This document shows positions 18,714 to 51,881 of a stretch of DNA of 64,000 bases, piece after piece. Below the pieces are notes generated by a model. The model was not told the DNA's origin, did no database searches, and was given only the letters and a program-made list of their open reading frames with translations. The DNA comes from Alphaproteobacteria bacterium LSUCC0684 (lineage in GTDB: Bacteria; Pseudomonadota; Alphaproteobacteria; Puniceispirillales; UBA1172). The first letter of the stretch is position 1, and every line of letters starts with the position of its first letter. The stretch spans positions 954,638-1,018,637 of the forward strand of contig CP166130.1 in NCBI GenBank assembly GCA_041228335.1, written 5' to 3'. Both the position numbers and the translations under genes were made by a program.

Positions 18714-18807
18714 AGCACAGCTGGCTCTCATGTCAACAGAAAAATCACTTTTCTGAACGGTTTCGGTTTTTCTGAATTTGCCGAAAAAAAGGGTTCTGTA
18801 TGCAAAC

Positions 18808-21100: not shown

Positions 21101-22312
21101 TTACTCCGCTGCCTTGTCATGCAGGCGGGCATAGCCATCGCGGGTCTGCGGTGCTTTTATGCCAAGGATTGAACTGGCCACTTGGGTGCGCAAAATCTGC
21201 GCCGTGCCACCAGCGATGGTGAACATGCGGGCGTCGCGGGTCAGCCGCTCCATTGGTAAGTCGCGCGAATAGCCCATTGAACCATGAATCTGCAACGCAT
21301 CCTGCGTCACCTTCAGTGCCGTCTCAGATGCCAGCACCTTGGCCTGCGCCGCCGCCATCATGTCAGGGAAGCCACCATCATTGTCGCTGGCCCCCGCCGC
21401 GGCGTCATGCAACAGCGCGCGGGCGGCCTTTAGGGATATCGACATATCAGCCAGCATCCATTGCAGTCCCTGAAACTCGGCAATCGGGCGGCCAAACTGC
21501 ATGCGGTTCAGCGCATAATCTCTTGCCTCGTCAAAGGCGCGCTGGGCAATGCCTAAGGCGACGGTGCCGGCACCTACACGCTGGGCGTTATAGGCATTCA
21601 TCAGGCCAGCAAAGCCTTTTTTCAGGCCCGATGGTGGGATCACCACCATGCTTTCATGCACTTCCATATCTTTGAAAGTCACATCGGTTTCCGGAATGCC
21701 GCGCACGCCCATGGCTGGAGTGCGCCGACCGATGACAAGACCTGGAGTTTCATTCAGAACAGCAATAAAGCCGGCGATGCCCTGGCTCACACCATTTTCC
21801 ATCACCCGGGCAAACACCAGATGAAATTTGGACACGCCGCCGCCGGTGATCCAGTGTTTTTTGCCATTGATGATATAAGTATCACCGCGCTTGACCGCGG
21901 TTGTTGTCATCTCGGTGGCGGCGCTTCCGGCATTGGGTTCGGTGATACAGATGGCCGGTTTGTCACCAGAAAGAACAAATTCAGCCGCCATGCGCTTTTG
22001 TGCTTCGGTGCCGTATTTCATGACCGCGCCAATCGCGCCCATATTCGCCTCAACCGTGATGCGGCCCATGGTCGAGCAGGCGCGCGCCATTTCCTCGATG
22101 ACTAGTACCGTATCCATATAGCTCAAGCCCCGGCCACCATAGGCCTCGGGGATTGTCATGCCCATAAAACCGGCGTCACGAAGTGCTGCGATATTATCCC
22201 ATGGATAGGCTTCTGTTCTATCCGTCTCGGCAGCAGTGGGCAGAAAAACATTTGTTGCAAGGTCACGTGCTGTTTCTTTGAGTTTTTGTTGGTTTTTGCT
22301 CAATTGTGTCAT
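21101..22312 (-). CDS. Acyl-CoA dehydrogenase
   Basis: An FAD enzyme that oxidises acyl-CoA thioesters to 2-enoyl-CoA. The product is 403 residues from the ATG at 22312, which overlaps the upstream CoA-transferase stop as ATGA; the frame extends further upstream but coupling favours this start. Family signatures are FMGMTIPEAYGGRGLSY near residue 50, CITEPNAGS near 130 and the C-terminal QIHGSMGYSRDLPMERLTRD. The catalytic base cannot be assigned by eye. The operon order CoA-transferase then dehydrogenase suggests activation of an acid to its CoA ester followed by desaturation. The substrate is unknown. Confidence 0.92.
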   Translation of the reverse strand: MTQLSKNQQKLKETARDLATNVFLPTAAETDRTEAYPWDNIAALRDAGFMGMTIPEAYGGRGLSYMDTVLVIEEMARACSTMGRITVEANMGAIGAVMKYGTEAQKRMAAEFVLSGDKPAICITEPNAGSAATEMTTTAVKRGDTYIINGKKHWITGGGVSKFHLVFARVMENGVSQGIAGFIAVLNETPGLVIGRRTPAMGVRGIPETDVTFKDMEVHESMVVIPPSGLKKGFAGLMNAYNAQRVGAGTVALGIAQRAFDEARDYALNRMQFGRPIAEFQGLQWMLADMSISLKAARALLHDAAAGASDNDGGFPDMMAAAQAKVLASETALKVTQDALQIHGSMGYSRDLPMERLTRDARMFTIAGGTAQILRTQVASSILGIKAPQTRDGYARLHDKAAE

Positions 22313-23529
22313 GTTGGTTGCCCCTGTTTCTTTTCCCATTTGGCCAATTCAGCTAGTATTTCTTTAGTATGCTCGCCACATCTTGGTGGCGGACGGCGAT
22401 AAGATATTTTTGATTTACTGAACTTTACCGGATTCCCGATCAAGCTAACGCCCACTGATCCGGCATCAGGATGCGCCATGATGATCTTCATATCTCGGGC
22501 TGTTACCTGATCTGTCTCAAACACATCTTGAATTGTGTTGATCGCGCCACCGGGGACACCTGCTTCATCAAGGGCGGCAACCAGTTCATCGCGTTTCCAC
22601 TTTACAATCTCCGCGACAAGGATTGGGATTAATTCCTGACGATTTTTGAGACGCATTTGATTTGTTGCATATAGAGGATCAGACGCCAGGTCCTCACGCT
22701 GTAAAATTGTGCAGAAACGCTCATATTGGGCGTCATTTCCAACAGCAATGACTACATGACCATCGGTTGTGGAAAAAACCTGATAAGGCACAATGTTCGG
22801 GTGCTGGTTGCCCAAACGAGGTTGATCCAAACCTGACACCAGATAGTTCGTCCCAGCATTGATCAACCACGCTACCTGTGAATCTACCAGTGCAAGATCA
22901 ATGTGTTGACCTTCACCGGTTCTGTCGCGATGCCTAAGGGCTGCCAGAATTGCGGTTGTTGCATACATCCCACACATGACATCCGCTATTCCAAGCCCCA
23001 CCTTCATGGGTTCACCGTCAGGATCACCGGTAATGCTCATAATCCCGCCATAAGCTTGAGCCAGAAGATCATATCCTGGTTTATGTGCATTTGGTCCTGT
23101 CTGTCCAAACCCTGAAATTGAACAATAGATGATATCAGGGTTTGTCATGCTAAGCCCTTCATAATCCAGGCCATATTTAGCAAGCCCTCCAACCTTGAAA
23201 TTTTCTATGACAACATCGCAATGTTTTACAAGTCTGTGGATGAGAGAAGCCCCTTCATCACTGGTGATATCAACGGCAAGGCTTCGTTTGTTTCTGTTAG
23301 CGCAGAGATAATAGGCGCTTTCCCGTGAAATATTTCCTCCATCATCCTTGAGAAAAGGTGGCCCCCATGTCCTAGTGTCATCACCTGTGCCCGGCTTTTC
23401 AATTTTTATTACATCAGCGCCGTAATCCCCGAGCAGTTGCGTACAAGTTGGGCCGGCAAGAATTCTCGAAAGGTCAAGAATCCGAATACCTGAGAGGGGG
23501 GAAGTATTATTTCTTGACGATAATGACAT
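22309..23529 (-). CDS. CaiB/BaiF family (type III) CoA-transferase
   Basis: 406 residues. Begins with the family pattern LSGIRILDLSRILAGPTCTQLLGDYGADVIKIEKPG, here abbreviated by key parts GIRILDLSRILAGP and GADVIKIEKP. The catalytic Asp should lie in GYDLLAQAYGGIMS near residue 170. It transfers CoA between carboxylic acids (known family members act on carnitine, formyl/oxalate or itaconate-type acids). It is divergent from the TRAP operon across a 300-nt AT-rich gap. Confidence 0.93.
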   Translation of the reverse strand: MSLSSRNNTSPLSGIRILDLSRILAGPTCTQLLGDYGADVIKIEKPGTGDDTRTWGPPFLKDDGGNISRESAYYLCANRNKRSLAVDITSDEGASLIHRLVKHCDVVIENFKVGGLAKYGLDYEGLSMTNPDIIYCSISGFGQTGPNAHKPGYDLLAQAYGGIMSITGDPDGEPMKVGLGIADVMCGMYATTAILAALRHRDRTGEGQHIDLALVDSQVAWLINAGTNYLVSGLDQPRLGNQHPNIVPYQVFSTTDGHVVIAVGNDAQYERFCTILQREDLASDPLYATNQMRLKNRQELIPILVAEIVKWKRDELVAALDEAGVPGGAINTIQDVFETDQVTARDMKIIMAHPDAGSVGVSLIGNPVKFSKSKISYRRPPPRCGEHTKEILAELAKWEKKQGQPT

Positions 23530-23833: not shown

Positions 23834-25027
23834 ATGGATAAGAAAACATTAACCCATGAAGAAAATGTTGAAATTTCTCGTCGTTTTGGCCTTAAAGCGC
23901 TCGGTTATGCTTCTGTAACACTTGCAACTACCGGTCTGATGCCTGACTTGGTGAAGTTTGCTGTTTCAGATGCTAAAGCTGCCACAAGTGCGAAACACAA
24001 ACTTAGGTTTGGTACGATTGTGGCGCCAAAAGCAGACAGATATTTGGCAACTGGCTTTTACCATCTCGCAAAAGCTATAGAAGAAAAAAGTGATGGTGAA
24101 ATTTCTATCCAGATGCTCGACAAGGCGCAGGTTTGTGCAGAGACTGCATGTGCGCAAAAGGTATCCACAGGCGTCATTGATATGGGTACCGCATCGTCAA
24201 CGAACCTGAGCCTTGTAGCAGCGTTCTCGAATGCAATTGACTGGCCGATGATGTGGACTGGGCGTGATGAAATATTTAACTTCCTGTTCAGCCCGGAGAG
24301 TGAAAAACTTTATCGAAGCGTGATGCGAAAAACCTACGGGATTGAGGTGCTTCATTACTATGGTGACATGCGTAGTATTTATATGGGGCTCAAATATTCT
24401 GATCGTGATGAAATGCGTACGCCAGAGGCCTTTGCTGGTGCAAAGATTCGGATTTCAGGTAGTGAAATGTTTGAAAATTTCACCAAGAGCCTTGGGATGA
24501 ACCCTATCCCTCTGGCATGGGTGGAAACGCTGGAAGGAATGAAATCCGGTGTGGTTGACGCGATGGAAACATTCCCATCAGCAGCTGCTGGATATGGTAT
24601 GACCAAAGTATCGGCGCAGGCAGTGGATGTGAATTTCTCACCTGGGGTCTGCCCGGCATTCATTTCCTCTCGTTCTATGGACAAAATGTCCGATAGGCTT
24701 AAGGAAGTTGTGTATGAGGCCGCATGGGAAGGGCAAAAACTGGCATATGAAGATGGCATTGTTGCAAACAATGTTGTCGTAGGTAGTGGAGACAACCCTG
24801 CTGCAGACAGCAATTACAGGTCACTTGATATGCGTGATGTCCGGTTGACCGATGAAGAACGGGCTGCCTTCGCCGAAGCTGGCGGTGTTGAAAAGAACAT
24901 GGATATGTATGGCGCCATGCGCTCCCAGATGGATGATATCGGTGGTTATGATGTTTATGGAGCAATGAAAGAGCAGGCCAGCAATTGGGTAGGCAAGCCG
25001 ATTAACATGCAAAAATGGTGGGCATAA
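23834..25027 (+). CDS. TRAP transporter solute-binding protein (DctP family)
   Basis: The periplasmic binding subunit of a tripartite ATP-independent transporter. 397 residues with a Tat-type signal (SRRFGLKALGYASVTLA, residues 15-31). The DctP fold includes the GTASSTNLSLV and AKIRISGSEMFENFTKSLG segments; the latter region normally holds the Arg that binds the ligand carboxylate. A strong GGAGGGG Shine-Dalgarno precedes the ATG. The ligand is probably an organic acid or other carboxylate-bearing compound. Confidence 0.9.
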   Translation: MDKKTLTHEENVEISRRFGLKALGYASVTLATTGLMPDLVKFAVSDAKAATSAKHKLRFGTIVAPKADRYLATGFYHLAKAIEEKSDGEISIQMLDKAQVCAETACAQKVSTGVIDMGTASSTNLSLVAAFSNAIDWPMMWTGRDEIFNFLFSPESEKLYRSVMRKTYGIEVLHYYGDMRSIYMGLKYSDRDEMRTPEAFAGAKIRISGSEMFENFTKSLGMNPIPLAWVETLEGMKSGVVDAMETFPSAAAGYGMTKVSAQAVDVNFSPGVCPAFISSRSMDKMSDRLKEVVYEAAWEGQKLAYEDGIVANNVVVGSGDNPAADSNYRSLDMRDVRLTDEERAAFAEAGGVEKNMDMYGAMRSQMDDIGGYDVYGAMKEQASNWVGKPINMQKWWA

Positions 25028-25043
25028 TTAACTCTCCTGCCTC

Positions 25044-25070
25044 GCCCACCTGCACAGGATGCGGGTGGGC
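25044..25070 (+). terminator. Intercistronic stem-loop between dctP and dctQ
   Basis: GCCCACCTGC and GCGGGTGGGC can pair over ten base pairs with a 7-nt loop; no U-tract follows. Such hairpins after a binding-protein gene often stabilise its mRNA or partially terminate, raising the binding protein over the membrane subunits (inference). Confidence 0.6.
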
Positions 25071-25155
25071 ATACATTCCTTAATTTATGTGATCATAATG
25101 CCTAAGTTTGAAATGTCTCAATGTATAAGAGTTTATTAAATTTAAGAGTAGTGAG

Positions 25156-25674
25156 ATGACCTTGTCTTTTGATCGAATTTTAAGCCGGATTGAAAGAGTT
25201 GTCATGCTGTCAAGTTATCTCACGCTAATACTTATAGTTAGTCTTGAAACAATTCGACGCATGATCACTGGTGACCAGTTTGGTTGGGGTCCAGATGTTT
25301 CGATGTATGCATTTGTCTGGTTGGCATGGTTTTCCATGTCTGCCAATTTGCGCGCAGGCAACCAGTTGGCTTTCATGACTTTTCGTTCCAAGATGACTAA
25401 CGAAACCAGACGATATTTTGAAATCCTGGATTGTTTTATCTGGCTGACAATCGGTACGGTCGTTATTACTACTTCCTATAATGTTGTCTTGAATGACCTC
25501 CGGCTGGGCCGTAATGTATTTGGTACAGACATTCCCATGGCGCTAGCTAGTGCGGCAGTGCCCTTGGGATGGTCTTTTTCAATGATACGCATTTTGCAGA
25601 TACTTATCGCTTTGTTGCGTAGACAAAATCCCCATCCTCCACTCAGAACTGAAAATAGCATTAGCCAGAGTTGA
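25156..25674 (+). CDS. TRAP transporter small permease (DctQ family)
   Basis: 172 residues with four predicted TM helices. The fold-typical W-x-x-D segment is seen in FGWGPDVSMYAFVWLAWFS. It partners with the DctM subunit that follows 4 nt downstream. Confidence 0.87.
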   Translation: MTLSFDRILSRIERVVMLSSYLTLILIVSLETIRRMITGDQFGWGPDVSMYAFVWLAWFSMSANLRAGNQLAFMTFRSKMTNETRRYFEILDCFIWLTIGTVVITTSYNVVLNDLRLGRNVFGTDIPMALASAAVPLGWSFSMIRILQILIALLRRQNPHPPLRTENSISQS

Positions 25675-25678
25675 TGTA

Positions 25679-26965
25679 ATGGATTTGACCTATTTAATTT
25701 CTGGACTTGCTATTTTCCTTTTTCTGACCGGTACACCTATCTTGCTGGTCATATCAGGTTGGGTTATTGCAACATCAGTTTGGGTGGTTGATTTTCCGCT
25801 TATAAATGTGGGCGTTGTTGCTAATGAAGCGGTTTTGATCTACGTCTTCCTTGCTGTTCCATTGTTTGTGGCAACAGGAGATCTTCTCACCGCTGGTGGG
25901 ATCTCCCAGAAATTGGTAACCTTTGCCCGAAGCACAGTGCCATTTCTCCCCGGAGCAACGGCGGCAACAACAATGGTATCTTGCGGTCTCTTTTCAGCTG
26001 TAAGCGGTTCTAACGCTGCAACGGCGGCAACTATGGGTAGGCTGTTGGGCCCCGAGCTTAACAGACAGGGAATTGAGCCGGGAATGGCTGCGGCTTTGGT
26101 GGCTGCAGGTGGAACGGTCGGCGTGATCATACCACCTTCAGTGATGTTCCTTATCTATGCCGTTACTGTGGATGTGTCCTCAGTTGATCTCTTTGTGGGT
26201 GGAATAATTCCAGGGATCATGATGGTCATGGTTCTGATCTTGATGGCCGTATTCTATACGCGCGCTAAGGAACCGTCTGCTGGCTTTAAGGCATTTAGTT
26301 TGAGTGCAATAATGAGCAATGCGGTCAAAGCATGGCTGGGGTTCATCGCAATCGGGATTATTTTGTTCGGCATTTACTGGGGGTATTTCAGCCCGACGGA
26401 AGCTGCAGGTGTCGTGACGCTCTATTGCATGCTTGCAGGGGTATTCATTAGTCGTGAACTGAAATTCAGGGATATTCCAAATATCCTAATGCAAAGTGCG
26501 ACCCTGACCGGATTGATAGTGCCTCTTGTGGTATTCTCGGTTCAGTTTCAGCAGGTGGCTTCGGTGATGGGTTTGCCACAGTTTCTCCAGGATACAATTA
26601 CAGCAATCGGATCAGATTACGGAATGGCCGTTTCTATCCTGCTGATGATGCTGATTATCCTGATGGTTGGAGCAATTACCGAGTCGACCGCAGTAGTTCT
26701 AATTCTTGGTCCTATACTTGCCCCTATTGCAGATTATTTCAACATCGACCCGATCCATTGGGGAGTCGTGTTTGTTATTGGCACCACGATTGGCTTTGTG
26801 ACACCTCCGTATGGTCTTAACCTCTTTGTGGTGTCTGGCGTGATGAATGTTCCCTACCCGTCAGTAATGCGAAATATCCTAAAACTCCTTATACCGCTTT
26901 TCCTTTTATGGGGTTTCATAACTTTTTCACCATGGACGGCAACCATGTTGCTGCCAAAGAGCTAG
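25679..26965 (+). CDS. TRAP transporter large permease (DctM family)
   Basis: 428 residues, about twelve TM segments. Typical DctM elements are VPLFVATGDLLTAGGIS, SAVSGSNAATAATMGR, GGTVGVIIPPSVMFLIYAV and FVTPPYGLNLFV. It forms the Na+-coupled translocation channel. It directly precedes the sulfatase gene by 39 nt, so transport of the sulfatase substrate is plausible. Confidence 0.93.
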   Translation: MDLTYLISGLAIFLFLTGTPILLVISGWVIATSVWVVDFPLINVGVVANEAVLIYVFLAVPLFVATGDLLTAGGISQKLVTFARSTVPFLPGATAATTMVSCGLFSAVSGSNAATAATMGRLLGPELNRQGIEPGMAAALVAAGGTVGVIIPPSVMFLIYAVTVDVSSVDLFVGGIIPGIMMVMVLILMAVFYTRAKEPSAGFKAFSLSAIMSNAVKAWLGFIAIGIILFGIYWGYFSPTEAAGVVTLYCMLAGVFISRELKFRDIPNILMQSATLTGLIVPLVVFSVQFQQVASVMGLPQFLQDTITAIGSDYGMAVSILLMMLIILMVGAITESTAVVLILGPILAPIADYFNIDPIHWGVVFVIGTTIGFVTPPYGLNLFVVSGVMNVPYPSVMRNILKLLIPLFLLWGFITFSPWTATMLLPKS

Positions 26966-27004: not shown

Positions 27005-28567
27005 ATGTCAAAATCAGATCAACCCAATTTTCTTTTCATCCAAACCGATCAGATGACGGCTTTTGCGCTCGAACAGTATGGTAATCCTGTATGTAAAACA
27101 CCTCACATTGATAAACTGGCTAAAGAAGGGGTGGTTTTTGATAATGCCTATTGCAACAATCCGATCTGTGCGTCGTCGAGATTTTCCATGATGTCAGGTC
27201 AATTGTCATCCCGTGTGGGGGCTTATGACAATGCAGCAGAGTTTCCCGCACAGACGCCGACGTTTGCTCATTATCTGGTAGATCTCGGTTACACTACCTG
27301 CCTTTCAGGTAAGATGCATTTTGTAGGACCGGACCAATTGCACGGATTTCAAGAACGTGTGACGACTGATATATACCCTTCTGACTTTGGCTGGACTCCA
27401 GACTGGCTATGTGAAGGTCTCCAACCGGCGCCGTCTGGGATGTCAATGCGGTCGGTGGTTGAAGCCGGTGTTTCTGAGCGATCCCTGCAGATAGATTACG
27501 ATGAGGAAACCTGCCATCAGGCAGAGGTCAAACTCTGGGAATATGCTCGATCATCAGAGAAAAAGCCCTTTTTCCTGGCCGTATCATTCACCCATCCCCA
27601 CAATCCATTTACCACCCAGTCCAAATACTGGGATCTCTATGAACATGAAAAGATAAATATGCCAATCGTACCGGCAATACCGGTTGAAGAAAAAGATCCT
27701 TGGTCGCAACGCTATTATTATCTTATCCGTAATGATGAGCACGATGTGACCGATGAAGATGTACGTAATGCACGCCATGCCTATTATGGCATGGTTACCT
27801 ATATGGATGACATGGTCGGTCGTTTAATGAAAGTTCTGGATGAGAGCGGTTTGCGCGAAAATACCGTTGTTATCTTTACTGCAGATCATGGCGATATGCT
27901 TGGCGAGCGCGGCATGTGGTATAAATTCAATCCTTATGAATGGTCTGTGCGCATTCCCCTGGTGATTTCAGCGCCCGGTGGGGTGAAGGGTAAGCATGAA
28001 AAGGCACTTGTTTCTTTGGTTGATATGTTGCCAACATTTGCTGATATGGGTGGGGCGGGCTCGTCCTTCCAGCCGGTAGACCAGATTGATGGCCGCAGTT
28101 TGAAGCCACTTCTCTATGGGCAGAAGACTGGCCTTGCGGATGAAGTGATGATCGAATTTACTGCGGAGGGGACTTACGCACCAGCTCTGATTTTGCGGCA
28201 AGGTGCTTTTAAATATGTCTATTGTGAAACCGATCCCGGCATGATGTTCAATCTTGAAGAAGATCCCAACGAGTTGAATAATTTATGTCAGGATCCCGCG
28301 TATGCTTTCAAAGCTGCAGAGATGGAAAAGGAAATCCTGCGTCGTTGGGACCCAGTAAAGTTAAAGGAAGATATAATTTCCAGCCAAAAACGTCGCCATT
28401 TTGTCCAGCGTATATTGATGAAGGGAACCTCTGTTCTTTGGGACTTTCAGCCAGAATTTGATGCTTCAAAACAGTATCTCAGAACAGGGAATAGCCCGAC
28501 CCAGGTTAAGGGTTTGGCCAGATATCCGTTTGTTGCGCCAAAACCGCCTGATCACCCAAGGAAATAG
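27005..28567 (+). CDS. Sulfatase of the choline-sulfatase (BetC) type
   Basis: Hydrolyses a sulfate ester, releasing sulfate and an alcohol. 520 residues, cytoplasmic (no signal peptide). Cys55 in ICASSR is the formylglycine site within the C-x-[PS]-x-R motif; Asp15 and the ADHGDMLGE segment bind the metal. The segments SGKMHFVGPDQLHGF and TTDIYPSDFGWTPDW and the C-terminal WDFQPEFDASKQYLR resemble BetC closely. The region after SDFGWTPDW differs from what I recall of classic BetC, so a related sulfate ester rather than choline-O-sulfate is possible. A cytoplasmic sulfatase needs the preceding TRAP importer or another uptake system. Confidence 0.87.
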   Translation: MSKSDQPNFLFIQTDQMTAFALEQYGNPVCKTPHIDKLAKEGVVFDNAYCNNPICASSRFSMMSGQLSSRVGAYDNAAEFPAQTPTFAHYLVDLGYTTCLSGKMHFVGPDQLHGFQERVTTDIYPSDFGWTPDWLCEGLQPAPSGMSMRSVVEAGVSERSLQIDYDEETCHQAEVKLWEYARSSEKKPFFLAVSFTHPHNPFTTQSKYWDLYEHEKINMPIVPAIPVEEKDPWSQRYYYLIRNDEHDVTDEDVRNARHAYYGMVTYMDDMVGRLMKVLDESGLRENTVVIFTADHGDMLGERGMWYKFNPYEWSVRIPLVISAPGGVKGKHEKALVSLVDMLPTFADMGGAGSSFQPVDQIDGRSLKPLLYGQKTGLADEVMIEFTAEGTYAPALILRQGAFKYVYCETDPGMMFNLEEDPNELNNLCQDPAYAFKAAEMEKEILRRWDPVKLKEDIISSQKRRHFVQRILMKGTSVLWDFQPEFDASKQYLRTGNSPTQVKGLARYPFVAPKPPDHPRK

Positions 28568-28633: not shown

Positions 28634-29521
28634 TTAATCATACTTTACTATTGCTTTTTGTGCAGAAGTCACAAGCGCATTATACACCCTATCAAGCATG
28701 GGCTGGCGATGATGGTTTTCCAGTTGAACCATCACGATCTTACGTTGAACAGGAGGCGAGCCAAAGGGTACCATATATAGTTTTTCTCTCAGATGATTTC
28801 GCACCGAAGACATTGGTAATATACCAACCCCAAGGCCCTCTAGAATCATCGTGTGGAAAATTTCAAGAGTATCCAACTCCATGATCGCATCAACTTCAAT
28901 CTTCATGCGCCGTAACTCAATTTCTATGATACGGCTGACAGCTGCGCGTCTGTTAAAACTGATAAAGCTGTTTCTCTTCAGCAGTTCAACATCAGTTTTG
29001 CCGCTTTGATCAATGGGCGCAAGAACCATTAACGGTTCGTTCAGAATAGGGCGAACTATTAATTCCTTGTCTAGATTGTCTGGCAGCGTTATTAGGGCGC
29101 CGTCAATCTTACCGTTCAGAACCTGATTGCTTAACTCGCTGGTGAGATTTGATGATACTCTGACTTGAAGCTGACGATAAGATTTTCTGAGATTTTTGAT
29201 TGCTTCGGGCAAAACAAATGATGCTCCTGGGATGGTGCCAATATTTATTGAACCGGCCATCTGGCTGGCCACTGGAGAGATTTGCATCAAATCATCATAA
29301 ATCTCGACAATAGCTCGTGCCTTCTCAAGCATCATCGCCCCTGCATTGCTTAATCTGGGAGGTCGCATTGACCTTTCAAAAAGCTCAAGATTCATGTGAA
29401 TTTCGAGATTTTTCATCTGCATGCTGACCGCGGACTGGGTGATATTCATCTTTTCGGCTGCAGCGTTGAAACTGCCCGTATCAGCAATGGCGAGGAAAGT
29501 TTTCAGGTGGCGAATAAGCAT
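28634..29521 (-). CDS. LysR-family transcriptional regulator
   Basis: 295 residues. The N-terminal winged HTH (residues 1-60, LKTFLAIADTGSFNAAAEK then QSAVSMQMKNLE) is followed by the periplasmic-binding-like co-inducer domain. It is divergent from the desaturase operon across 142 nt, the usual geometry for a LysR regulator and its target. Confidence 0.93.
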   Translation of the reverse strand: MLIRHLKTFLAIADTGSFNAAAEKMNITQSAVSMQMKNLEIHMNLELFERSMRPPRLSNAGAMMLEKARAIVEIYDDLMQISPVASQMAGSINIGTIPGASFVLPEAIKNLRKSYRQLQVRVSSNLTSELSNQVLNGKIDGALITLPDNLDKELIVRPILNEPLMVLAPIDQSGKTDVELLKRNSFISFNRRAAVSRIIEIELRRMKIEVDAIMELDTLEIFHTMILEGLGVGILPMSSVRNHLREKLYMVPFGSPPVQRKIVMVQLENHHRQPMLDRVYNALVTSAQKAIVKYD

Positions 29522-29566
29522 CTTATTACTTAAGCATTGCTGAAGATATTAATCAATTAGATTGTT

Positions 29567-29595
29567 TTGACTGAACTTATTATAGCGAATACACA
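29567..29595 (+). promoter_or_regulatory. Possible promoter of the desaturase operon
   Basis: TTGACT (29567-29572), 17-nt spacer, TACACA (29590-29595). The -35 is good and the -10 is poor, as expected for an activator-dependent promoter. The AT-rich ATTAATCAATTAGATT just upstream contains T-N11-A arrangements usable by LysR proteins. Confidence 0.35.
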
Positions 29596-29663: not shown

Positions 29664-30638
29664 ATGACTGAACTTGATGCCAACGCTGATTTACTCAAAC
29701 GGCAACGCGAAATCATTTCACGCCAAGATCTCAAGTCATTTACAAAACGACGTGATCTCCCGGGGTTACTCTATTTTTTCGGTCTGCTGTCTTGCATCGG
29801 AGCTTCAGGTTTTCTTGTCTATCTTGCCGAACCTTATGGATGGTGGATTTGGCCTGCCATGCTTCTGCACGGCATCATGCTCGGGCATCTTTTTGCCCCT
29901 CTCCATGAAACCAGCCATGGAACAGCGTTCAGGACACGATGGATTAATGAAACCGTGCTTTGGTTTTGTGGCATCGTTACGATCTGGCCGCCACTTTACT
30001 TCAGATATGATCATGCAGGTCACCATACCTATGCTCAGGTTGCTGGCAAGGATCCTGAATTCGTGCTGCCCGCTCCACGTTCAATTTTGGGATATATCTA
30101 TTATGTTTCGGCAATTCACTTGTGGATTAAGAACGGAGGGTGGCTCTTCCGCCATGCGCTTGGATATATGCATCCGTTCAACCGTCAGTTTGTCCCGGAC
30201 GAAGAATTGCCACGTATCTACATGGAAGCACGCATCATGCTCACTATATATGCAGCACTGGCAGTTTTCACCATCAGCACGGGATCAATGGTTGTTCTCC
30301 ATTACTGGTTGATCCCGACCTTGATTGGTGTTCCGGTAGCTCGGATGCTAAGGGTTGCTGATCATACAGGTTGTGATGAGAAGCCGGATTTGCGTAGATA
30401 TGCTAGGACAGTGACAACAGATTTCATCACACGCTTTTTCTGTTGGAATATGTCCTATCATTGCGAGCATCATCTTGCTCCCGCTGTACCTTTTCATCAA
30501 CTGCCGGGCCTGCATAAGGCAGTCGGTCATGAAATGAATCCAGTCAAAAAGGGGTATATTGCGATCCAGTGGGAAATTCTGACAAAACATATGTCAGGTT
30601 TCTGGCCATCTAGAAAATCATCACCTCCGGCAGAATAG
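29664..30638 (+). CDS. Membrane di-iron fatty acid desaturase/hydroxylase family protein
   Basis: 324 residues with four or more TM helices and three histidine boxes: HETSH (81-85), HAGHH (117-121) and HCEHH (266-270), the ligands of the non-haem di-iron centre in membrane desaturases and hydroxylases. It uses O2 and two electrons to desaturate or hydroxylate an alkyl chain. The next genes encode a Rieske ferredoxin and a ferredoxin reductase, so it resembles a multicomponent oxygenase more than a housekeeping lipid desaturase. Substrate unknown. Confidence 0.9.
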   Translation: MTELDANADLLKRQREIISRQDLKSFTKRRDLPGLLYFFGLLSCIGASGFLVYLAEPYGWWIWPAMLLHGIMLGHLFAPLHETSHGTAFRTRWINETVLWFCGIVTIWPPLYFRYDHAGHHTYAQVAGKDPEFVLPAPRSILGYIYYVSAIHLWIKNGGWLFRHALGYMHPFNRQFVPDEELPRIYMEARIMLTIYAALAVFTISTGSMVVLHYWLIPTLIGVPVARMLRVADHTGCDEKPDLRRYARTVTTDFITRFFCWNMSYHCEHHLAPAVPFHQLPGLHKAVGHEMNPVKKGYIAIQWEILTKHMSGFWPSRKSSPPAE

Positions 30639-30658
30639 AAGATAAAAGGGGCAGTGAG

Positions 30659-30979
30659 ATGATTAGTGAGTGGCAGTTTGCGATAAATGCTAACGAAATT
30701 GAAGATGAAGATGTGATGCCAGTTGAAATAGGCAAACGTGAAATTGCCATCTACCGGTTCAATGATAACTTCTACGCTACCAGCGATAAATGCACCCACG
30801 GAGATGCCTATCTTTCAGAAGGAGTTGTTGTTGGCGAGGTGATTGAATGCCCTCTCCATCAGGGGCGCTTTTGCCTGAAAACAGGAAAAGCGTTGAGCGC
30901 ACCTGTCTCAGCTCCAATCGAAACCTTCGAAGTGAAACTTGAAGACGGTAAAGTATTTGTCAAACTGGCTGGATCCTAG
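30659..30979 (+). CDS. Rieske [2Fe-2S] ferredoxin
   Basis: 106 residues, no signal peptide. Cluster ligands are C45-T-H47 and C64-P-L-H67. Small soluble Rieske ferredoxins deliver electrons to oxygenases. It lies 20 nt after the desaturase and 4 nt before the TPR gene, so it is almost certainly the electron donor of that enzyme. Confidence 0.93.
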   Translation: MISEWQFAINANEIEDEDVMPVEIGKREIAIYRFNDNFYATSDKCTHGDAYLSEGVVVGEVIECPLHQGRFCLKTGKALSAPVSAPIETFEVKLEDGKVFVKLAGS

Positions 30980-30983
30980 AGCA

Positions 30984-32366
30984 ATGAAAATAACTAATCA
31001 GTTTGGTTTCGAGTGGAGCGGGGCAACTCCTGAACAGGGCCAGTTGCTTGATTTAATAATTAAAGATTATTTTGCATATAGACTTAGCGTTTTCCCACAG
31101 CTCAAAACTCTATGTGAAGATGCTCCGTCATTTGCAATGGCACATATCTTCAAAGGCTACCTGCTTCTTTCAATGGGTACGCAAAGCACATTCCCGGCCG
31201 CTGAAAACTGCGCTGATCATGTGCGTAATCTAAGTGATCATCTAACCCCAAATGAAAATCTTCATCTGTCAGCATTAAGGGCATGGATAAATCTGGATAG
31301 TGAATTGGCATGCTATAATTGGGACATGATCACAATTGCCGAGCCGCGAGATCTACTGGCGGTGAAACTCCAGCATTTCACTTTATTCTGGATGGGGCGC
31401 CCTCATCATATGATGGATGTAATTTCACGGGTTCTTCCGAATTGGCGGGATAACATGCCGGGATATGCAAATCTTCTGGGCATGCAGGCTTTCGCTCATG
31501 AAGAAATGGGAGACTACAAAAAAGCAGAATCCCTAGGTCGCATGGCTGTGGAAATGGATCCAGATGATCTTTGGGCTGTACATGCAGTCGCCCATGTTTA
31601 CGAAATGAAGAACGACTTGGATGCAGGGATCTCATGGCTGGATCAGCCATATGGCACCTGGCATGATCGAAATCCGTTCAAAGATCATCTTTGGTGGCAT
31701 ACAGCTCTTTTTGCTTTTGAAACGGGGGCTTACGATCGGGTACTAGAACTTTACGACACATCTATATGGCCTGATGATTCCAGTTTCTATCTTGATATTC
31801 AGAATTCTGCTTCAATGTTGGCGAGGCTTGAATTTGCCGGGGTAGATGTGGGCGACCGATGGAAATCACTGGCCGTAAAGGCGCAAGAACGTACTGGTGA
31901 TCATGTTCTGCTTTTTACAGAACCTCACTACACCATGGCTTTTGGTAGCACTTCCCAGTTTGATCATATTGAAAATCAGATAGATTCCCTTGAAAAAACC
32001 ATGGCTAGTCGAGATGATTTTGCTGGGCGAGTGACACGAGATATTGCCGTTCCTGTTTGCAGAGCTATTGAGGCATTTTATCAAAAAAACTATCCGCGAG
32101 TGATCGAATTGCTGTGGCCTATCCGATATCAATATCAACCTATTGGCGGCAGTCATGCTCAACGCGATATATTTAATATATTTTTAATCGAAGCGGCAAT
32201 CAAAACAGAAAACTTCAAAATGGCCCGAGCCTTGCTTCTTGAGCGCAAATCACGCCACCACAGAAGTTATAGCAGTCAACAAAGGCTTGATGAGGTGAAC
32301 CTGGCATTAATGGAATCAATGTCACCTAATGAGAATTCTAATGATTATTTATATGGTTACTATTAA
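30984..32366 (+). CDS. Tetratricopeptide repeat protein, TTC38 family
   Basis: 460 residues from the ATG at 30984 (the frame opens at 30939). The central part, around AFAHEEMGDYKKAESLGRMA, then WAVHAVAHVYEM, then DHLWWHTALFAFETGAYDRVLELYD, matches the TTC38 pattern of TPR-like helices. The family has no established biochemical role. Its place between the two electron-transfer genes suggests that it is part of the oxygenase system. Its stop overlaps the next start (TAATG). Confidence 0.8.
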   Translation: MKITNQFGFEWSGATPEQGQLLDLIIKDYFAYRLSVFPQLKTLCEDAPSFAMAHIFKGYLLLSMGTQSTFPAAENCADHVRNLSDHLTPNENLHLSALRAWINLDSELACYNWDMITIAEPRDLLAVKLQHFTLFWMGRPHHMMDVISRVLPNWRDNMPGYANLLGMQAFAHEEMGDYKKAESLGRMAVEMDPDDLWAVHAVAHVYEMKNDLDAGISWLDQPYGTWHDRNPFKDHLWWHTALFAFETGAYDRVLELYDTSIWPDDSSFYLDIQNSASMLARLEFAGVDVGDRWKSLAVKAQERTGDHVLLFTEPHYTMAFGSTSQFDHIENQIDSLEKTMASRDDFAGRVTRDIAVPVCRAIEAFYQKNYPRVIELLWPIRYQYQPIGGSHAQRDIFNIFLIEAAIKTENFKMARALLLERKSRHHRSYSSQQRLDEVNLALMESMSPNENSNDYLYGYY

Positions 32367-33424
32367 TGGCAAATTTAATTACCCTCTTAACCAAAAGATC
32401 TCAAAAACAGTTTGAAATATTACCCGGAGAGACAATCCTTTTTGCGGGATTAAGGGCTGGACTTGATTTGCCTCATGAATGTTGTAGCGGGACATGTGGC
32501 ACCTGTCAGGCTCAGGCACTTGATGAAGCATCAATCCTGTCAATGTGGGACGAAGCCCCTGGCAAATCCTTTTTGCCTGAAGGAGCAGGGCGGGTGTTGA
32601 TGTGTCAAACTGCTGTAAGCCGAACGGCAGAATTCAAATTGTTTGGCTCATTACGTGATCGTGATGAGCATATCAATTCGCCGGATTATTTTTCGGCAAC
32701 ACTGCAAAGGCAACGCAGGTTGAATGATGATGTCATGGCTTTCAACCTGAAACTTGAAGAGACCTGTACATATATTGCGGGACAGTTTGGTTTGTTGAGC
32801 ATCCCCGAAGTAGAGGGATGGCGCGCATATTCAATGACAAGCCGATCATCTCGCAATGGCACAACCCAATTGACCTTTGTCATAAGAAAAAAGACCGGCG
32901 GCCTTTTTTCTGAATGGTTGTTTTCAGGCGACAGAACAGGTCATGAGATCAGGTTTTTTGGCCCGGTTGGCAAGGCTGTTCTCAAGCCTGAAAGTGATGG
33001 AGATATTGTGATTATTGCCGGGGGAAGTGGTATTGCTGGCATGATGGCTATTCTTGAAGATGCCATCGAAACTCCTCATCTTTCCAGCAGGCAGGCTCGT
33101 GTCTTTTTTGGCGTCAGAAACCCTGACGCTATCTTCTTCAATGATGAATTATCAGATATGGTCGACAAGGCCGATGGAAAATTATCTGTGACAGTTGCCT
33201 TTTCAGAAAGTCCGCCTTCTGAACCTTTGCCTCAAGGTAATCTCTATATTTCATCAGGAAATATCCATGAAGTTGCGAGGCGAGATTTGGTCTCAAGGCC
33301 CGCGCCATCCAACGCTGTTTACTTTCTTGCCGGTCCATCGCAAATGGTTGAAGCGGCGCAATCTATGCTCCGCGAGGATGCTGATGTTGCTGATAACCAG
33401 ATAAGGTATGACAAATTCAGTTAA
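32366..33424 (+). CDS. Ferredoxin-NAD(P)+ reductase with N-terminal plant-type [2Fe-2S] domain
   Basis: 352 residues. The N-terminal ferredoxin domain has C39-x4-C44-x2-C47 and C80. The FAD-binding barrel follows (WRAYSMTSRSS holds the RxYS-type motif), then the NAD(P) domain (IVIIAGGSGIAGMMAI). It moves electrons from NAD(P)H to the Rieske ferredoxin or directly to the di-iron enzyme, like BenC/XylA-type reductases. Confidence 0.92.
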   Translation: MANLITLLTKRSQKQFEILPGETILFAGLRAGLDLPHECCSGTCGTCQAQALDEASILSMWDEAPGKSFLPEGAGRVLMCQTAVSRTAEFKLFGSLRDRDEHINSPDYFSATLQRQRRLNDDVMAFNLKLEETCTYIAGQFGLLSIPEVEGWRAYSMTSRSSRNGTTQLTFVIRKKTGGLFSEWLFSGDRTGHEIRFFGPVGKAVLKPESDGDIVIIAGGSGIAGMMAILEDAIETPHLSSRQARVFFGVRNPDAIFFNDELSDMVDKADGKLSVTVAFSESPPSEPLPQGNLYISSGNIHEVARRDLVSRPAPSNAVYFLAGPSQMVEAAQSMLREDADVADNQIRYDKFS

Positions 33425-33429
33425 GGCAA

Positions 33430-34587
33430 ATGGCTATGGCTTTGGGCACTCTATCAATTGCGAACAATGGCAATAGTATTTTCGGGAAAGGTGCCATTGA
33501 TCATCTCTCAGAGAATCTTCTGGCACTTGGGGTAAGCCGCCCACTCATTATTACAGATCAAGGTATTCTAAATGCAGGTCTTTTGGAAAAGCTTTTAGCT
33601 CGTATATCAGGTTTTCCAGGTCACTCGGTCTTTCTGGAAACGCCATCAAATCCTAACGAGGCCTCCGTTGAAGCTGCTGCGTCAAAATTCAGGTCTGACA
33701 GTTGCGATTCAATCATTGGCTTTGGAGGGGGCTCATCCCTTGACCTTGCAAAAGCCGCTGGCTTACGAGCAACCCATGAGGGATCGCTTGATATATACAC
33801 CACGCAGAACCAGGGCGTAAGAATTATAGGAAAAACACCGCCACTGATTGCAATTCCAACAACAGCAGGAACAGGTAGTGAGGTAGCGCGGGCGGCTGTT
33901 ATCATCCTTGAAAATGGAGAAAAGCGGATTATAGCCAGTCCTAAACTGGTGCCTGATGTGGCTATTCTCGATCCGATGTTGACTATTGGGCTCCCCCCTT
34001 TGCTGACTGCAGCAACCGGCATGGATGCGGTCACGCACTGTATTGAAGCGGTGCTTTCACCGATTATCAATCCTACCGCTGAAGCAATCGGGCTTTGCGG
34101 CTTGTCTGTAGCCCTTGGAGAAGGGGCATTGCTTGCTGCTGTCGAAGATGGAAATAACGAGGCTGCCCGTAACAGCATGATGGCTGTTTCAACACAAGGT
34201 GCGATGGCTTTCTCTAAAGGGTTGGGGGCTGTCCATGCAATGAGTCATGCCTGTGGTAAAGATGAAAAACTTCGCCTACATCATGGTACGTTGAATGCGG
34301 TTCTTTTGCCTGTGGTGTTGCAGCGTAACGAAACTGTTGCTGGTGAAAAATATCCTCGTATTGCAGATGCAATCGGAATCCCCTGTAAATCTGACCTTGC
34401 TTCGTTCTTTTTATCATTAAATAGCAAGTTAGGTTTGCCAGCAAACTTGGCTGAGATGGGCATAACGCCCGACATGATCCCTGATCTGGCCCTTCATGCT
34501 TCAATTGACTTCTGTTCTGCCACCAATCCCGTTTCACTCGATGTCACGGACTATGAAAGTCTGTTTCATCAGGCGCTGTTTTGCTGA
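33430..34587 (+). CDS. Iron-containing (type III) alcohol dehydrogenase
   Basis: 385 residues. It has the GGGSSLDLAKA nucleotide-binding loop (about residue 96), IPTTAGTGSEV near 138, and the metal ligand region GMDAVTHCIEA, then GAVHAMSHACG and LHHG. NAD-dependent oxidation of an alcohol is the usual role. It lies 5 nt downstream of the reductase in the same operon and could oxidise the hydroxylated product. Confidence 0.93.
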   Translation: MAMALGTLSIANNGNSIFGKGAIDHLSENLLALGVSRPLIITDQGILNAGLLEKLLARISGFPGHSVFLETPSNPNEASVEAAASKFRSDSCDSIIGFGGGSSLDLAKAAGLRATHEGSLDIYTTQNQGVRIIGKTPPLIAIPTTAGTGSEVARAAVIILENGEKRIIASPKLVPDVAILDPMLTIGLPPLLTAATGMDAVTHCIEAVLSPIINPTAEAIGLCGLSVALGEGALLAAVEDGNNEAARNSMMAVSTQGAMAFSKGLGAVHAMSHACGKDEKLRLHHGTLNAVLLPVVLQRNETVAGEKYPRIADAIGIPCKSDLASFFLSLNSKLGLPANLAEMGITPDMIPDLALHASIDFCSATNPVSLDVTDYESLFHQALFC

Positions 34588-34601
34588 TAGGGGTAAATGC
34601 C

Positions 34602-35453
34602 ATGGATTTAATGATGCCAGCCACTGATCGTGCCAGTATTGATTATCATTATTTTATCCGTGGAAGATTGCCCGAATGGGATGATAACTTAGCTGATTGT
34701 GCCAACCTTAGTCAGATTGTAAGAAATTCCTCGCTTTGTCATCAGGATATTTCCTATGGCAACGTTAGTCGTCAGGTGATGGATATCTTTCCTTCAGATC
34801 AGGATCAACAAAATCAATCAGTGCTGATTTTTCTTCACGGCGGGTATTGGCGAATGATGAATAAATCTCAATTCAGTTTCATTGCTCCGCCCTTCACGTC
34901 CATGGGAGTAACAGTAGTTCTGGTGAATTATCGTCTTCTTCCATACGTTACTTTGGCAAATATTGTTGAAGATGCGCGCATAGCTGTAGACTGGATTGTC
35001 CACAATATAGAGGGATTTGTCGGAAAAGTAGAAAATATCATTGTTTGCGGACATTCGGCCGGCGCCCATCTGGCGGCGCATGTTGCATGTAACAACCCAG
35101 CGATAGCTGGAATGGTAGGCATATCAGGGGTTTATGATCTTGAGCCTCTTGCAAATTCCTTTCTGAACGAGATCGGTTTTCTGGATCAGTCTGTAATCGA
35201 TGCTTATGGGATCAACGCTCTGACACCAGAAAATCCATGTTCTGGATTATTTGCTTATGGAGCCAGTGAAGGGGTTGAATTTGCCAGGCAGAGTGATGTG
35301 ATTGCTAAGAGGTGGAAAAACCAGCGCTTACCGGTGAAACAGTTGATCCTTGATGCCAATCATTCCACAAGCGTTATTCAGCTCGGAGATGATAGAAGTC
35401 CACTTTTCAACGCCATGATCAAGTTTATTCAAAGAGCCGGAGTAGCAACATGA
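34602..35453 (+). CDS. Alpha/beta hydrolase, kynurenine-formamidase/HSL-like
   Basis: 283 residues from the ATG at 34602, chosen for the AGGGG Shine-Dalgarno; the frame opens at 34581. The oxyanion motif is HGGYW and the nucleophile elbow GHSAGAH, typical of the hormone-sensitive-lipase-like group that includes arylformamidases. It probably cleaves a small ester or amide. It overlaps the next gene as ATGA. Confidence 0.82.
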   Translation: MDLMMPATDRASIDYHYFIRGRLPEWDDNLADCANLSQIVRNSSLCHQDISYGNVSRQVMDIFPSDQDQQNQSVLIFLHGGYWRMMNKSQFSFIAPPFTSMGVTVVLVNYRLLPYVTLANIVEDARIAVDWIVHNIEGFVGKVENIIVCGHSAGAHLAAHVACNNPAIAGMVGISGVYDLEPLANSFLNEIGFLDQSVIDAYGINALTPENPCSGLFAYGASEGVEFARQSDVIAKRWKNQRLPVKQLILDANHSTSVIQLGDDRSPLFNAMIKFIQRAGVAT

Positions 35454-36514
35454 AATCCATGCAGATCCTTGAGTGGGGAAAACCACTTGAGATGCGCCAT
35501 AGCGAGACACCTGTCCCTGAAGGAAAACAAATTCTGGTTGCGGTGGAATATTGCGGGGTTTGTCATAGTGACTTACACATACGTGAGGGCTTTTTTGATC
35601 TGGGAAATGGCGTAAAATTTCCAATTTCGGCGCGCGGTGTTCACCCGCCATTCACCATGGGGCATGAACCTGTGGGCTGTGTTGTTGCCGTTGGTCCTGA
35701 GGCAAATCCCGATTTGCTTGGCCGATCTTTTGTAATTTACCCCTGGATTAACTGTGAAGAGTGCGAGCCATGCCAAAATAGCCTTCCTCAGATATGTGAT
35801 GCCCCTAAAATCATTGGGACACGCGTTGATGGCGCCTATGCAGACCATGTAATTGTTCCTGATGAGAAATTTCTTGTTGAGTATGGCGATATCAACCCCG
35901 CTCTTGCCTGCACCTTGGCCTGTTCTGGGCTTACGGTGTTTAGTGCATTGAAGAAAATTATGCCCCAGGACCTTAATAGGCAGGACACTATTCTCATTAT
36001 TGGTGCAGGGGGGCTTGGTCTTACAGCAGTGATGCTTGCTAAATCATTGAGTAAAGCCCGGATTGTCATTGCAGATATTGATGAGGCAAAACTAGACGCA
36101 GCAATGGATCTAGGAGCTGATGAAAGCATCCTTTCAAGTTCTAAAAATGCCAGCACTCAAATCAAGGAGTTTGCGGCATCTGGCAACGGGCTAGCTGCAA
36201 GTCTTGATTTTGTCGGCCTTCCCCAAACAATGCAACTTGGCCTCGACAGTTTAAGAAAGGGAGGTGTGCATGTCCATGTTGGGCTTTTTGGCGGAGCGTT
36301 CCAACTCTCCCTTCCGCCACTTTCATTCAGAATGTTGCAAATCAGAGGTTCCTATGTGGGTACTCTGGAAGAATTTAGGGAGTTGGTATCGCTTGTACGG
36401 AATGGGCTGAGAATGGAGCTTCCTGTGGAAATACGGTTACTCACTGAGGCTAATGCGGCGCTTAATGATCTTCAGGAGGGAGAAATTGTGGGTAGAGTCG
36501 TGCTGAAACCATAG
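35450..36514 (+). CDS. Zinc-dependent alcohol dehydrogenase (MDR family)
   Basis: 354 residues. Catalytic zinc ligands are in CGVCHSD and GHEPVG. Structural zinc cysteines are in NCEECEPCQNSLPQIC. The Rossmann motif is IGAGGLGL. It is translationally coupled to the hydrolase (ATGA overlap) and is the last gene of the desaturase operon. Two unrelated alcohol dehydrogenases in one operon suggest two oxidation steps or two alcohol products. Confidence 0.93.
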   Translation: MKSMQILEWGKPLEMRHSETPVPEGKQILVAVEYCGVCHSDLHIREGFFDLGNGVKFPISARGVHPPFTMGHEPVGCVVAVGPEANPDLLGRSFVIYPWINCEECEPCQNSLPQICDAPKIIGTRVDGAYADHVIVPDEKFLVEYGDINPALACTLACSGLTVFSALKKIMPQDLNRQDTILIIGAGGLGLTAVMLAKSLSKARIVIADIDEAKLDAAMDLGADESILSSSKNASTQIKEFAASGNGLAASLDFVGLPQTMQLGLDSLRKGGVHVHVGLFGGAFQLSLPPLSFRMLQIRGSYVGTLEEFRELVSLVRNGLRMELPVEIRLLTEANAALNDLQEGEIVGRVVLKP

Positions 36515-37844: not shown

Positions 37845-37846
37845 GA

Positions 37847-51116: not shown

Positions 51117-51206
51117 GACTGAAATCGGCAAGCAATTATTTTGGCTTGTGTTAATCATTTTTTCATTGGCTTCGTGTACCTTCTGATCCTAAAGGATCGG
51201 AAAGCC

Positions 51207-51881
51207 ATGAAATATTTTGCCAAAAGATCGGGATTGATTGTCAGCCTTTTGCTGGCACCCCTTGCCCATGCCAGCGTGGACACCTGCCATATTCTCTGTG
51301 ATGTCGAGTGGCTCGCACAGGTTGATGAGGTTGAATTAAGAGATGTTCTTGACAGCAAGGCTGAGAGCGAAATCAAAGGCCGGGATGAATACGACTGGAC
51401 TCCTCTGCATCTTGCCGCGCGCTGGGGCAAGCCTGAAGTGATCGAGGTTTTGGTCAATGCGGGTGCATCTCTTGAAGCGATAACCGAATTCAATGGTCAG
51501 ACGCCATTGCATTCGGCGGTTGGTTCGGGGAAAGTTGAAAATATTGAAGCTCTTATCTTGGCGGGGGCCAATATCGAGTCGCGCTGTATCAAGGGAGGCA
51601 CGCCCCTGCATTGGGCGGCGCAGTTCGGTTCAGTCCGTATAGTACAGAAACTGATCGATGAAGGTGCGATGCTCGAAGCCCGTGACCGCAATGGATACAC
51701 CCCGTTGCACTGGGCTGCAAAAAAAGGAATGCCCGCTAAACTTCGTGTGTTGATTGCTGCAGGCGCGGATATCAAAGCCAGGACCATACACGGCATGGTG
51801 CCGGCTGATTTTGCCGATGGTAATCCTCTGATCCAGGGAAGTGATGTGTATTGGATACTTCATGATGCGCGGTTTAACTAA
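51207..51881 (+). CDS. Periplasmic ankyrin-repeat protein
   Basis: 224 residues from the ATG at 51207. A signal peptide (MKYFAKRSGLIVSLLLAPLAHA) has a likely cleavage after AHA. Four ankyrin repeats follow, with the TPLHxAAxxG pattern at TPLHLAARWGK, TPLHSAVGSGK, TPLHWAAQFGS and TPLHWAAKKGM. Such exported ankyrin proteins usually bind periplasmic partners; the partner is unknown. Confidence 0.87.
   Translation: MKYFAKRSGLIVSLLLAPLAHASVDTCHILCDVEWLAQVDEVELRDVLDSKAESEIKGRDEYDWTPLHLAARWGKPEVIEVLVNAGASLEAITEFNGQTPLHSAVGSGKVENIEALILAGANIESRCIKGGTPLHWAAQFGSVRIVQKLIDEGAMLEARDRNGYTPLHWAAKKGMPAKLRVLIAAGADIKARTIHGMVPADFADGNPLIQGSDVYWILHDARFN

Follow-up and report, generated by a model that had tools for sequence, protein, structure and literature searches.

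A desaturase-fold oxygenase with its own Rieske ferredoxin appears to lead a candidate solute-catabolic operon in Alphaproteobacteria bacterium LSUCC0684

Genes called 'fatty acid desaturase' in marine alphaproteobacteria are usually taken as membrane-lipid genes. A stretch of 64,000 nucleotides from Alphaproteobacteria bacterium LSUCC0684 (contig CP166130.1 of assembly GCA_041228335.1, positions 954,638 to 1,018,637; the window, below, is this whole stretch) raises the question of what such a gene does when it belongs to a branch with a Rieske ferredoxin, a reductase and a regulator of its own and with catabolic neighbourhoods. The gene, here called desat, leads a run of seven genes in a SAR116-order genome consisting of one contig of 2.70 Mb. 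The analysis favored the reading that these genes, under divergent LysR control, encode a catabolic pathway that an oxygenase initiates and that acts on a small dissolved methylated or organosulfur solute, with a probability of about 0.55. A catabolic rather than a lipid function of the operon was considered likely, and the methylated or organosulfur nature of the substrate was given somewhat less than an even chance.

The seven genes (29664-36514) ran in one direction, and their junctions were gaps of at most 20 nt or overlaps of 1-4 nt (Table 1). The gap was 20 nt between desat and the Rieske ferredoxin gene, 4 nt between the latter and the ATG of the gene labelled TTC38, 5 nt between the reductase gene and that of the iron-containing alcohol dehydrogenase (Fe-ADH), and 14 nt between Fe-ADH and the ATG of the hydrolase gene, where an alternative in-frame TTG at 34581 would produce an overlap. 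TTC38 and the reductase gene shared one base at 32366 (TAATG); the hydrolase gene and that of the zinc alcohol dehydrogenase (Zn-ADH) shared ATGA (35450-35453). The LysR gene was divergent from desat at a distance of 142 nt. The initial annotation, made from the sequence of the window, had described seven consecutive genes with overlaps or short gaps and a divergent LysR gene, and all of these were present.

When about 85,000 species genomes were scanned with desat, orthologues (75-82% identity) were found on six other contigs; the caller used for high-GC loci took residue composition into account. Loci L007, L009 and L010 matched the window in the content and order of all seven genes and in the TRAP transporter, sulfatase and divergent LysR genes upstream. 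The contig of L011 was cut inside desat, and its upstream sulfatase, TRAP, CoA-transferase and acyl-CoA-dehydrogenase-like genes were ordered as in the window. In L006 (same contig as G103), which came from the same order as the window genome, the operon was rearranged: desat, Rieske, an aldehyde dehydrogenase (ALDH), TTC38, a ferredoxin reductase with Pyr_redox_2 and Reductase_C domains, and Fe-ADH. About 20 kb away on this 42-kb contig were a sulfatase (78%), a Zn-ADH (58%) and a desulfinase-like gene (77-81%), and a ProX/ProV-type importer lay between the two parts. The ALDH orthologue of the window genome was found near 892 kb, outside the window. In L008, from a 6.3-Mb genome, LysR, desat and Rieske alone stood together, and the sulfatase was 6 kb away. 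LysR was divergent from desat in all seven loci, and the Rieske gene adjoined desat in every orthologous locus not cut inside desat. Fe-ADH orthologues occurred in L006, L007, L009 and L010, and Zn-ADH orthologues (58-62%) in L007, L009 and L010 as well as near the sulfatase in G103. The gene contents of L006 and L008, set against those of L007, L009 and L010, showed that the constant core is LysR-desat-Rieske, while the remainder is a pathway that is partly exchangeable. A Sinorhizobium mexicanum locus combined desat with a Pyr_redox reductase, an alcohol dehydrogenase resembling class III enzymes (glutathione-formaldehyde-dehydrogenase-like) and a hydrolase of the same family (33%). Among viral contigs and phages no relatives were found, and the PHROGs search gave no match.

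Between LysR and desat, a 47-bp block was conserved, with about 22 of its 47 columns invariant in the seven loci and few invariant columns elsewhere in the intergenic region. It contained the half-sites CTTAAG and CTTCAAG and ended in TTTTGACTGAA. The block fits a LysR-controlled promoter, as far as sequence conservation can tell, and lends support to the LysR control that the initial annotation had assumed. Scans of sigma-70 promoters and terminators gave no more matches than shuffled sequences. Conservation of the gene order in other genomes, together with the phylogenetic footprint between LysR and desat, shows that the arrangement is not due to chance.

The desat product belonged to the FA_desaturase family (PF00487, 122 bits against a gathering score of 29.7) and had three histidine boxes, conserved as HE[TC]SH, HAGHH and HCEHH in seven orthologues. 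Its scores were far below the cut-offs of the lipid desaturase models DesA/DesB (NF052549 / NF052548; 28.2 and 24 against 500 bits), of the carotenoid ketolase CrtW and of its best NCBIfam match, the GntB model NF041365 (42.1 against 380 bits). No AlkB model matched at the thresholds used, and a sequence search of the PDB gave chance matches alone. In an unrooted tree built from 61 homologues, which were drawn from the order, the class and plasmids and included no characterised lipid desaturase, support for the window clade was 100/99. A further branch (100/97) placed the window clade and every homologue with an adjacent Rieske ferredoxin on one side, together with three long-branch SAR116 rows without the ferredoxin. 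On the other side were 45 homologues, among them the second desaturase copy of the window genome, and none had an adjacent Rieske ferredoxin. The initial annotation had named clustering of the desaturase with known lipid desaturases whose electron donors lie elsewhere as a finding against its reading; in this tree, the 100/97 branch set the clade apart from most of the uncharacterised homologues. Of the non-orthologous loci on the Rieske side, 5 of 7 had sarcosine oxidase, MttB-like or betaine-binding/transporter genes nearby, compared with 0 of 25 loci across the branch (Fisher p = 1e-4, with query genes picked after the loci were seen and loci that are not independent). Some of these neighbouring genes were named after a Ruegeria annotation. 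This association with N-methyl compounds is a lead, not a test.

The Rieske protein was of the dioxygenase type, with an HcaC/AndAb-like NCBIfam match below cut-off. Reductase and ferredoxin were encoded with the oxygenase, as in three-component systems. In L006, the reductase was replaced by a non-homologous BphA4-type ferredoxin reductase, while the Rieske ferredoxin and TTC38 were retained, and Pyr_redox reductases likewise came after desat, or after desat and Rieske, in L097 and L063. Such exchange across loci is expected if the job of the reductase is electron supply. Gene content and exchange of reductases together indicate that the operon very probably encodes a dedicated chain of NAD(P)H, reductase, Rieske ferredoxin and di-iron enzyme, with electrons presumably flowing in that direction. 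The full chain from NAD(P)H to a membrane di-iron centre, proposed in the initial annotation, was thus upheld by a ferredoxin that stays when the reductase is swapped.

Table 1. Features of the operon and its surroundings in the window
Feature	Position	Strand	Basis or remark
Acyl-CoA dehydrogenase-fold protein, predicted 3-sulfinopropanoyl-CoA desulfinase (AcdA)	21101..22339	-	NF042439
Class III CoA-transferase adjoining desulfinase gene	22309..23529	-	PF02515
TRAP transporter	23834..26965	+	DctP 23834-25027, small permease 25156-25674, large permease 25679-26965
Choline-sulfatase-like alkyl sulfatase without choline clamp	27005..28567	+	TIGR03417
LysR-type regulator, divergent from desat	28634..29521	-	PF00126 + PF03466
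Conserved 47-bp block between LysR and desat, candidate LysR site/promoter	29528..29574	.	CTTAAG ... CTTCAAG ... TTTTGACTGAA
desat, membrane di-iron oxygenase, FA_desaturase family	29664..30638	+	Pfam, histidine boxes, tree
Rieske [2Fe-2S] ferredoxin, dioxygenase type (C-x-H ... C-x-x-H)	30659..30979	+	PF00355, 66 bits
TTC38-like TPR superhelix protein	30984..32366	+	weak Pfam TPR matches, predicted structure
NAD(P)H-dependent oxidoreductase, MmoC/BenC-like	32366..33424	+	Fer2 + FAD_binding_6 + NAD_binding_1 (plant-type 2Fe-2S, FAD, NAD domains)
Iron-containing alcohol dehydrogenase (Fe-ADH)	33430..34587	+	Fe-ADH + ADH_Fe_C
Alpha/beta hydrolase, kynurenine-formamidase / HSL-like (HGGYW, GHSAG)	34602..35453	+	BD-FAE/Abhydrolase_3
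Zinc alcohol dehydrogenase (Zn-ADH)	35450..36514	+	ADH_N + ADH_zinc_N

The TRAP, sulfatase, CoA-transferase and desulfinase-like genes, which were outside the gene set of the initial annotation, travelled with the operon. The TRAP gene order was kept in L007, L009, L010 and L011 as far as the contigs extend. The sulfatase scored 633 bits against the TIGR03417 cut-off of 433. In the choline-O-sulfatase of Sinorhizobium (SmeCOSe), choline is held by Trp129 and His145 with Trp143, Tyr144 and Asn146, and Asn146 and Asp500 form a gate (PMC9063841). In all seven cluster copies, positions 143-146 were SGMS for WYHN and positions 499-500 were PT, so that neither clamp nor gate was retained, and of the choline-holding residues Trp129 and Tyr123 alone were kept. 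The formylglycine motif was C-A-S-S-R instead of C-x-P-x-R in the same seven copies. A canonical choline-sulfatase paralogue elsewhere in the window genome kept WYHN. Choline-O-sulfate was rejected as substrate on this residue test and, because the choline-binding residues are replaced in all cluster copies, the enzyme probably cleaves another alkyl sulfate. Across the SAR116 order, choline-sulfatase-family paralogues occurred in 44 of 136 genomes with up to four copies (L182 and L183 were among the loci compared). The residue classes WYHN, SGMS, SRMS and SGTA at the clamp suggest several unknown alkyl sulfates.

The predicted desulfinase scored 662.8 bits against the NF042439 cut-off of 600, and its best PDB match was 5af7 (563 bits, against 250 for the next). 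It shared with 5af7 the Arg84 position and AGGT in place of YEGT, where the catalytic Glu is missing, in keeping with AcdA. We take 5af7 to be the Advenella enzyme, and Arg84 and the missing Glu to have the roles assigned to them in AcdA. The best model of the neighbouring CoA-transferase was succinate-glutarate CoA-transferase (521 against 750 bits), with no Act model available. CoA-transferase and desulfinase genes were neighbours in both the window and L011; in G103 the desulfinase gene lay on the cassette contig. The predicted desulfinase was rare: among 136 genomes of the order, 5 had it, and both genomes of that sample with the oxygenase cassette were among these. Use of 3-sulfinopropanoate may be a mobile trait in the SAR116 order.

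In the proposed pathway, electrons from NAD(P)H would pass through the FAD/2Fe-2S reductase and the Rieske ferredoxin to the membrane di-iron enzyme, which would hydroxylate the substrate. The attack would most likely fall on a carbon adjoining N or S, and the product would collapse or be oxidised to an aldehyde, a reaction suggested by the neighbours of distant homologues and by the desulfinase. The resulting fragment would be processed by the two alcohol dehydrogenases, an aldehyde dehydrogenase and the hydrolase; the downstream dehydrogenases are co-directional, which agrees with the product oxidation foreseen in the initial annotation. The TRAP transporter would import the substrate, the non-choline alkyl sulfatase would trim it, and the CoA-transferase/desulfinase pair would finish its breakdown, with propionyl-CoA and sulfite arising in the last step. 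TTC38 would serve the pathway as an accessory TPR protein that the oxygenase itself does not require. A more general proposal is that desat represents a new class of small-solute oxygenases, Rieske-fed membrane di-iron enzymes of the desaturase family that cleave N-/S-methyl (or other heteroatom-carbon) bonds of marine osmolytes; coupled in this operon to 3-sulfinopropanoyl-CoA desulfinase, the enzyme would open a new route by which organic sulfur or nitrogen is turned over in the sea. This proposal is doubtful at present.

Several observations weigh against the solute-catabolic reading. No residue or structure shows a substrate, and the predicted structure of the desat product (predicted local distance difference test, pLDDT, 46; seven-sequence alignment) was unusable. 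The loci behind the N-methyl gene association are 36-42% identical and fall outside the clade of the window, and an anion would suit the TRAP transporter and alkyl sulfatase better than a quaternary amine would. L008 has none of the downstream operon genes at the locus, so that these are not obligatory. The desulfinase/CoA-transferase pair, whose link to the oxygenase step is presumptive, occurs without the cassette, in other contexts, in G039, G102 and G104, and the assemblies of L007, L009 and L010, which are partial, did not show it.

Two other readings of the substrate were weighed. The enzyme could be a desaturase or hydroxylase of the lipid/hydrocarbon type that acts on a hydrophobic molecule such as the acyl chains of membranes or a terpenoid, with an alkyl or cyclic compound being degraded via a lactone or hydroxy acid. 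The classical substrates of the FA_desaturase fold are hydrophobic, and a route from hemiacetal to lactone to hydroxy acid would fit an Fe-ADH whose nearest model is 4-hydroxybutyrate dehydrogenase (NF058672, 417.6 bits, below the cut-off of 500) and a cluster ALDH nearest to succinate-semialdehyde dehydrogenase. Two Baeyer-Villiger-like flavin monooxygenases, judged from sequence, also lie in the G103 island. Yet the curated lipid-desaturase models are far from reached (28 vs 500 bits), the window clade is separate from the genome's second desaturase, ferredoxin, reductase and LysR regulator are dedicated to it, and the TRAP transporter and desulfinase indicate small anionic solutes, which makes a hydrophobic substrate unlikely. 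The same desulfinase, over its curated cut-off and with Arg84 retained, is the starting point for a narrower form of the solute-catabolic reading, a C3 organosulfur pathway in which the oxygenase splits a sulfonium or sulfone compound, the dehydrogenases and ALDH turn a C3 sulfinate into 3-sulfinopropanoate, and CoA-transferase and desulfinase yield propionyl-CoA and sulfite. The adjacency of the pair in the window and L011 and the desulfinase gene on the G103 contig speak for it, as does the relation of Fe-ADH, ALDH and CoA-transferase to enzymes of 4-hydroxybutyrate, succinate semialdehyde and succinate, which would be isosteres of C3 sulfinates. This form is rather unlikely, given that the pair occurs alone in three other genomes, that the Sox/MttB/OpuAC contexts of distant homologues favour nitrogen compounds, and that no sulfur-specific oxygenase feature is known.

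The label TTC38 comes from the initial annotation; Pfam gave weak TPR matches and NCBIfam no match. The predicted structure (pLDDT 82.7) was a TPR superhelix that matched TPR folds in the PDB, and fold families other than TPR-like solenoids are possible for this model. The initial annotation had suggested that TTC38 could be a new oxygenase component, and had named its occurrence in relatives independently of the other genes as one finding that would speak against its reading. Relatives were found in 104 of 385 alphaproteobacterial genomes, often in several copies and in unrelated gene contexts in the cases inspected, and on plasmids of many genera. TTC38 was part of the cassette in L006, L007, L009 and L010, and was found neither at the orthologous LysR-desat-Rieske locus L008 nor at the distant desat-Rieske loci inspected. 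The suggested role as a component was not borne out by this distribution, and TTC38 was rejected as a required partner of the oxygenase on the evidence of L008 and of the family at large. Independence from the other genes holds for the family as a whole but not for the small genomes, since the five streamlined cassette genomes had their sole TTC38 copy (E <= 1e-40) inside the cassette; for this reason a role in the pathway, putative as any role of the protein must be, is likely.

A stronger role, with the first four genes encoding a single enzyme complex and TTC38 acting as a genuine subunit or assembly factor of the oxygenase, would accord with its single copy inside each of those five cassettes and with its position between ferredoxin and reductase in the window, L007, L009 and L010 and between ALDH and reductase in L006. 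Another TPR-like protein also adjoins the desaturase of a different SAR116 group. Given the absence of TTC38 from L008 and from every distant desat-Rieske locus inspected, and the common occurrence of the family in unrelated contexts, this role is improbable.

An alignment of the window protein with relatives from L002, L064-L067 and L117-L144 showed that H200, H204, H235, H239, H315, D123, E174, D258, R281, R292, Q393 and D395 were invariant in 44 diverse members of the TTC38 family. A mere scaffold would rarely conserve residues in this way, which suggests a possible ligand-binding, metal-binding or catalytic site in the family. In the other SAR116 group, loci L045, L048, L049 and L050 (G129, G125, G131 and G059) encoded aconitase X and a TPR-like protein of 560 aa without a Pfam match beside a desaturase from the family of desat and, where the contigs reach, DUF1989 and a ProX-type binding protein. 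This set is a second undescribed solute cluster.

The initial annotation knew of no described pathway with this gene set, and literature searches found none within the limits of the searched library. The alkane hydroxylase AlkB and xylene monooxygenase XylMA systems have an integral-membrane di-iron oxygenase with histidine boxes that works with separate electron-transfer proteins, and their operons also encode alcohol/aldehyde dehydrogenases; the donor in these systems is rubredoxin or a XylA-type reductase. The window operon resembles them in its membrane di-iron oxygenase, separate electron-transfer proteins and operon dehydrogenases, and differs in encoding a Rieske ferredoxin beside the oxygenase. 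GntB, the L-arginine hydroxylase of guanitoxin biosynthesis, is the best NCBIfam match of desat and acts on a small polar molecule; however, desat is far below the cut-off and its context is catabolic with a dedicated ferredoxin. A literature search on the relation to GntB found no GntB paper. With the three-component Rieske dioxygenases the operon shares a dioxygenase-type ferredoxin and the alternative reductases, of the BenC/MmoC type in the window and the BphA4 type in L006, whereas its terminal oxygenase is a membrane di-iron protein and not a Rieske oxygenase alpha subunit.

The flanking genes also have known counterparts. A class III CoA-transferase beside an ACAD-fold (acyl-CoA dehydrogenase-fold) desulfinase recalls the Act-AcdA 3-sulfinopropionate module of Variovorax paradoxus TBEA6 and Advenella mimigardefordensis DPN7, and act and acdA are adjacent in Variovorax by neighbouring locus tags (PMC6370202). 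In the window, the desulfinase alone is over a curated cut-off, and the pair is linked to a TRAP transporter, a sulfatase and an oxygenase operon. The window sulfatase aligns with the choline-O-sulfatase BetC (PMC9063841) in its catalytic residues and C-terminal extension, but differs in the substituted clamp and lost gatekeeper residues. The parts are of known kinds, and what appears to be new is the pairing, in a solute-catabolic operon, of a dedicated Rieske ferredoxin with an oxygenase of the desaturase fold. If the solute-catabolic reading is true, part of the turnover of dissolved methylated/sulfur osmolytes would use an enzyme class that nobody assays for. The LysR footprint, the clamp-less sulfatase and the desulfinase form a short gene list that makes the substrate testable.

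Other features were observed in the window. Directly behind the operon (36612-40153) were a GcvT-domain protein similar to dimethylsulfoniopropionate/trimethylamine N-oxide demethylases and then a TorA/BisC-type S/N-oxide reductase; both were left out of the pathway, as their position after the operon was conserved in neither L007 nor L010. Two repeats were present in the gene of a chromosomal RepC-like replication initiator (18778-20478): an 18-bp tandem repeat at 20037-20123, which encodes a GRGCLP peptide repeat, and another at 19767-19814. A HipA-like kinase (HipA_C 178.8 bits) was encoded at 40643-41917, and an ankyrin-repeat protein (51141-51881) and an RTX calcium-binding-repeat protein (53782-54699) were encoded near each other.

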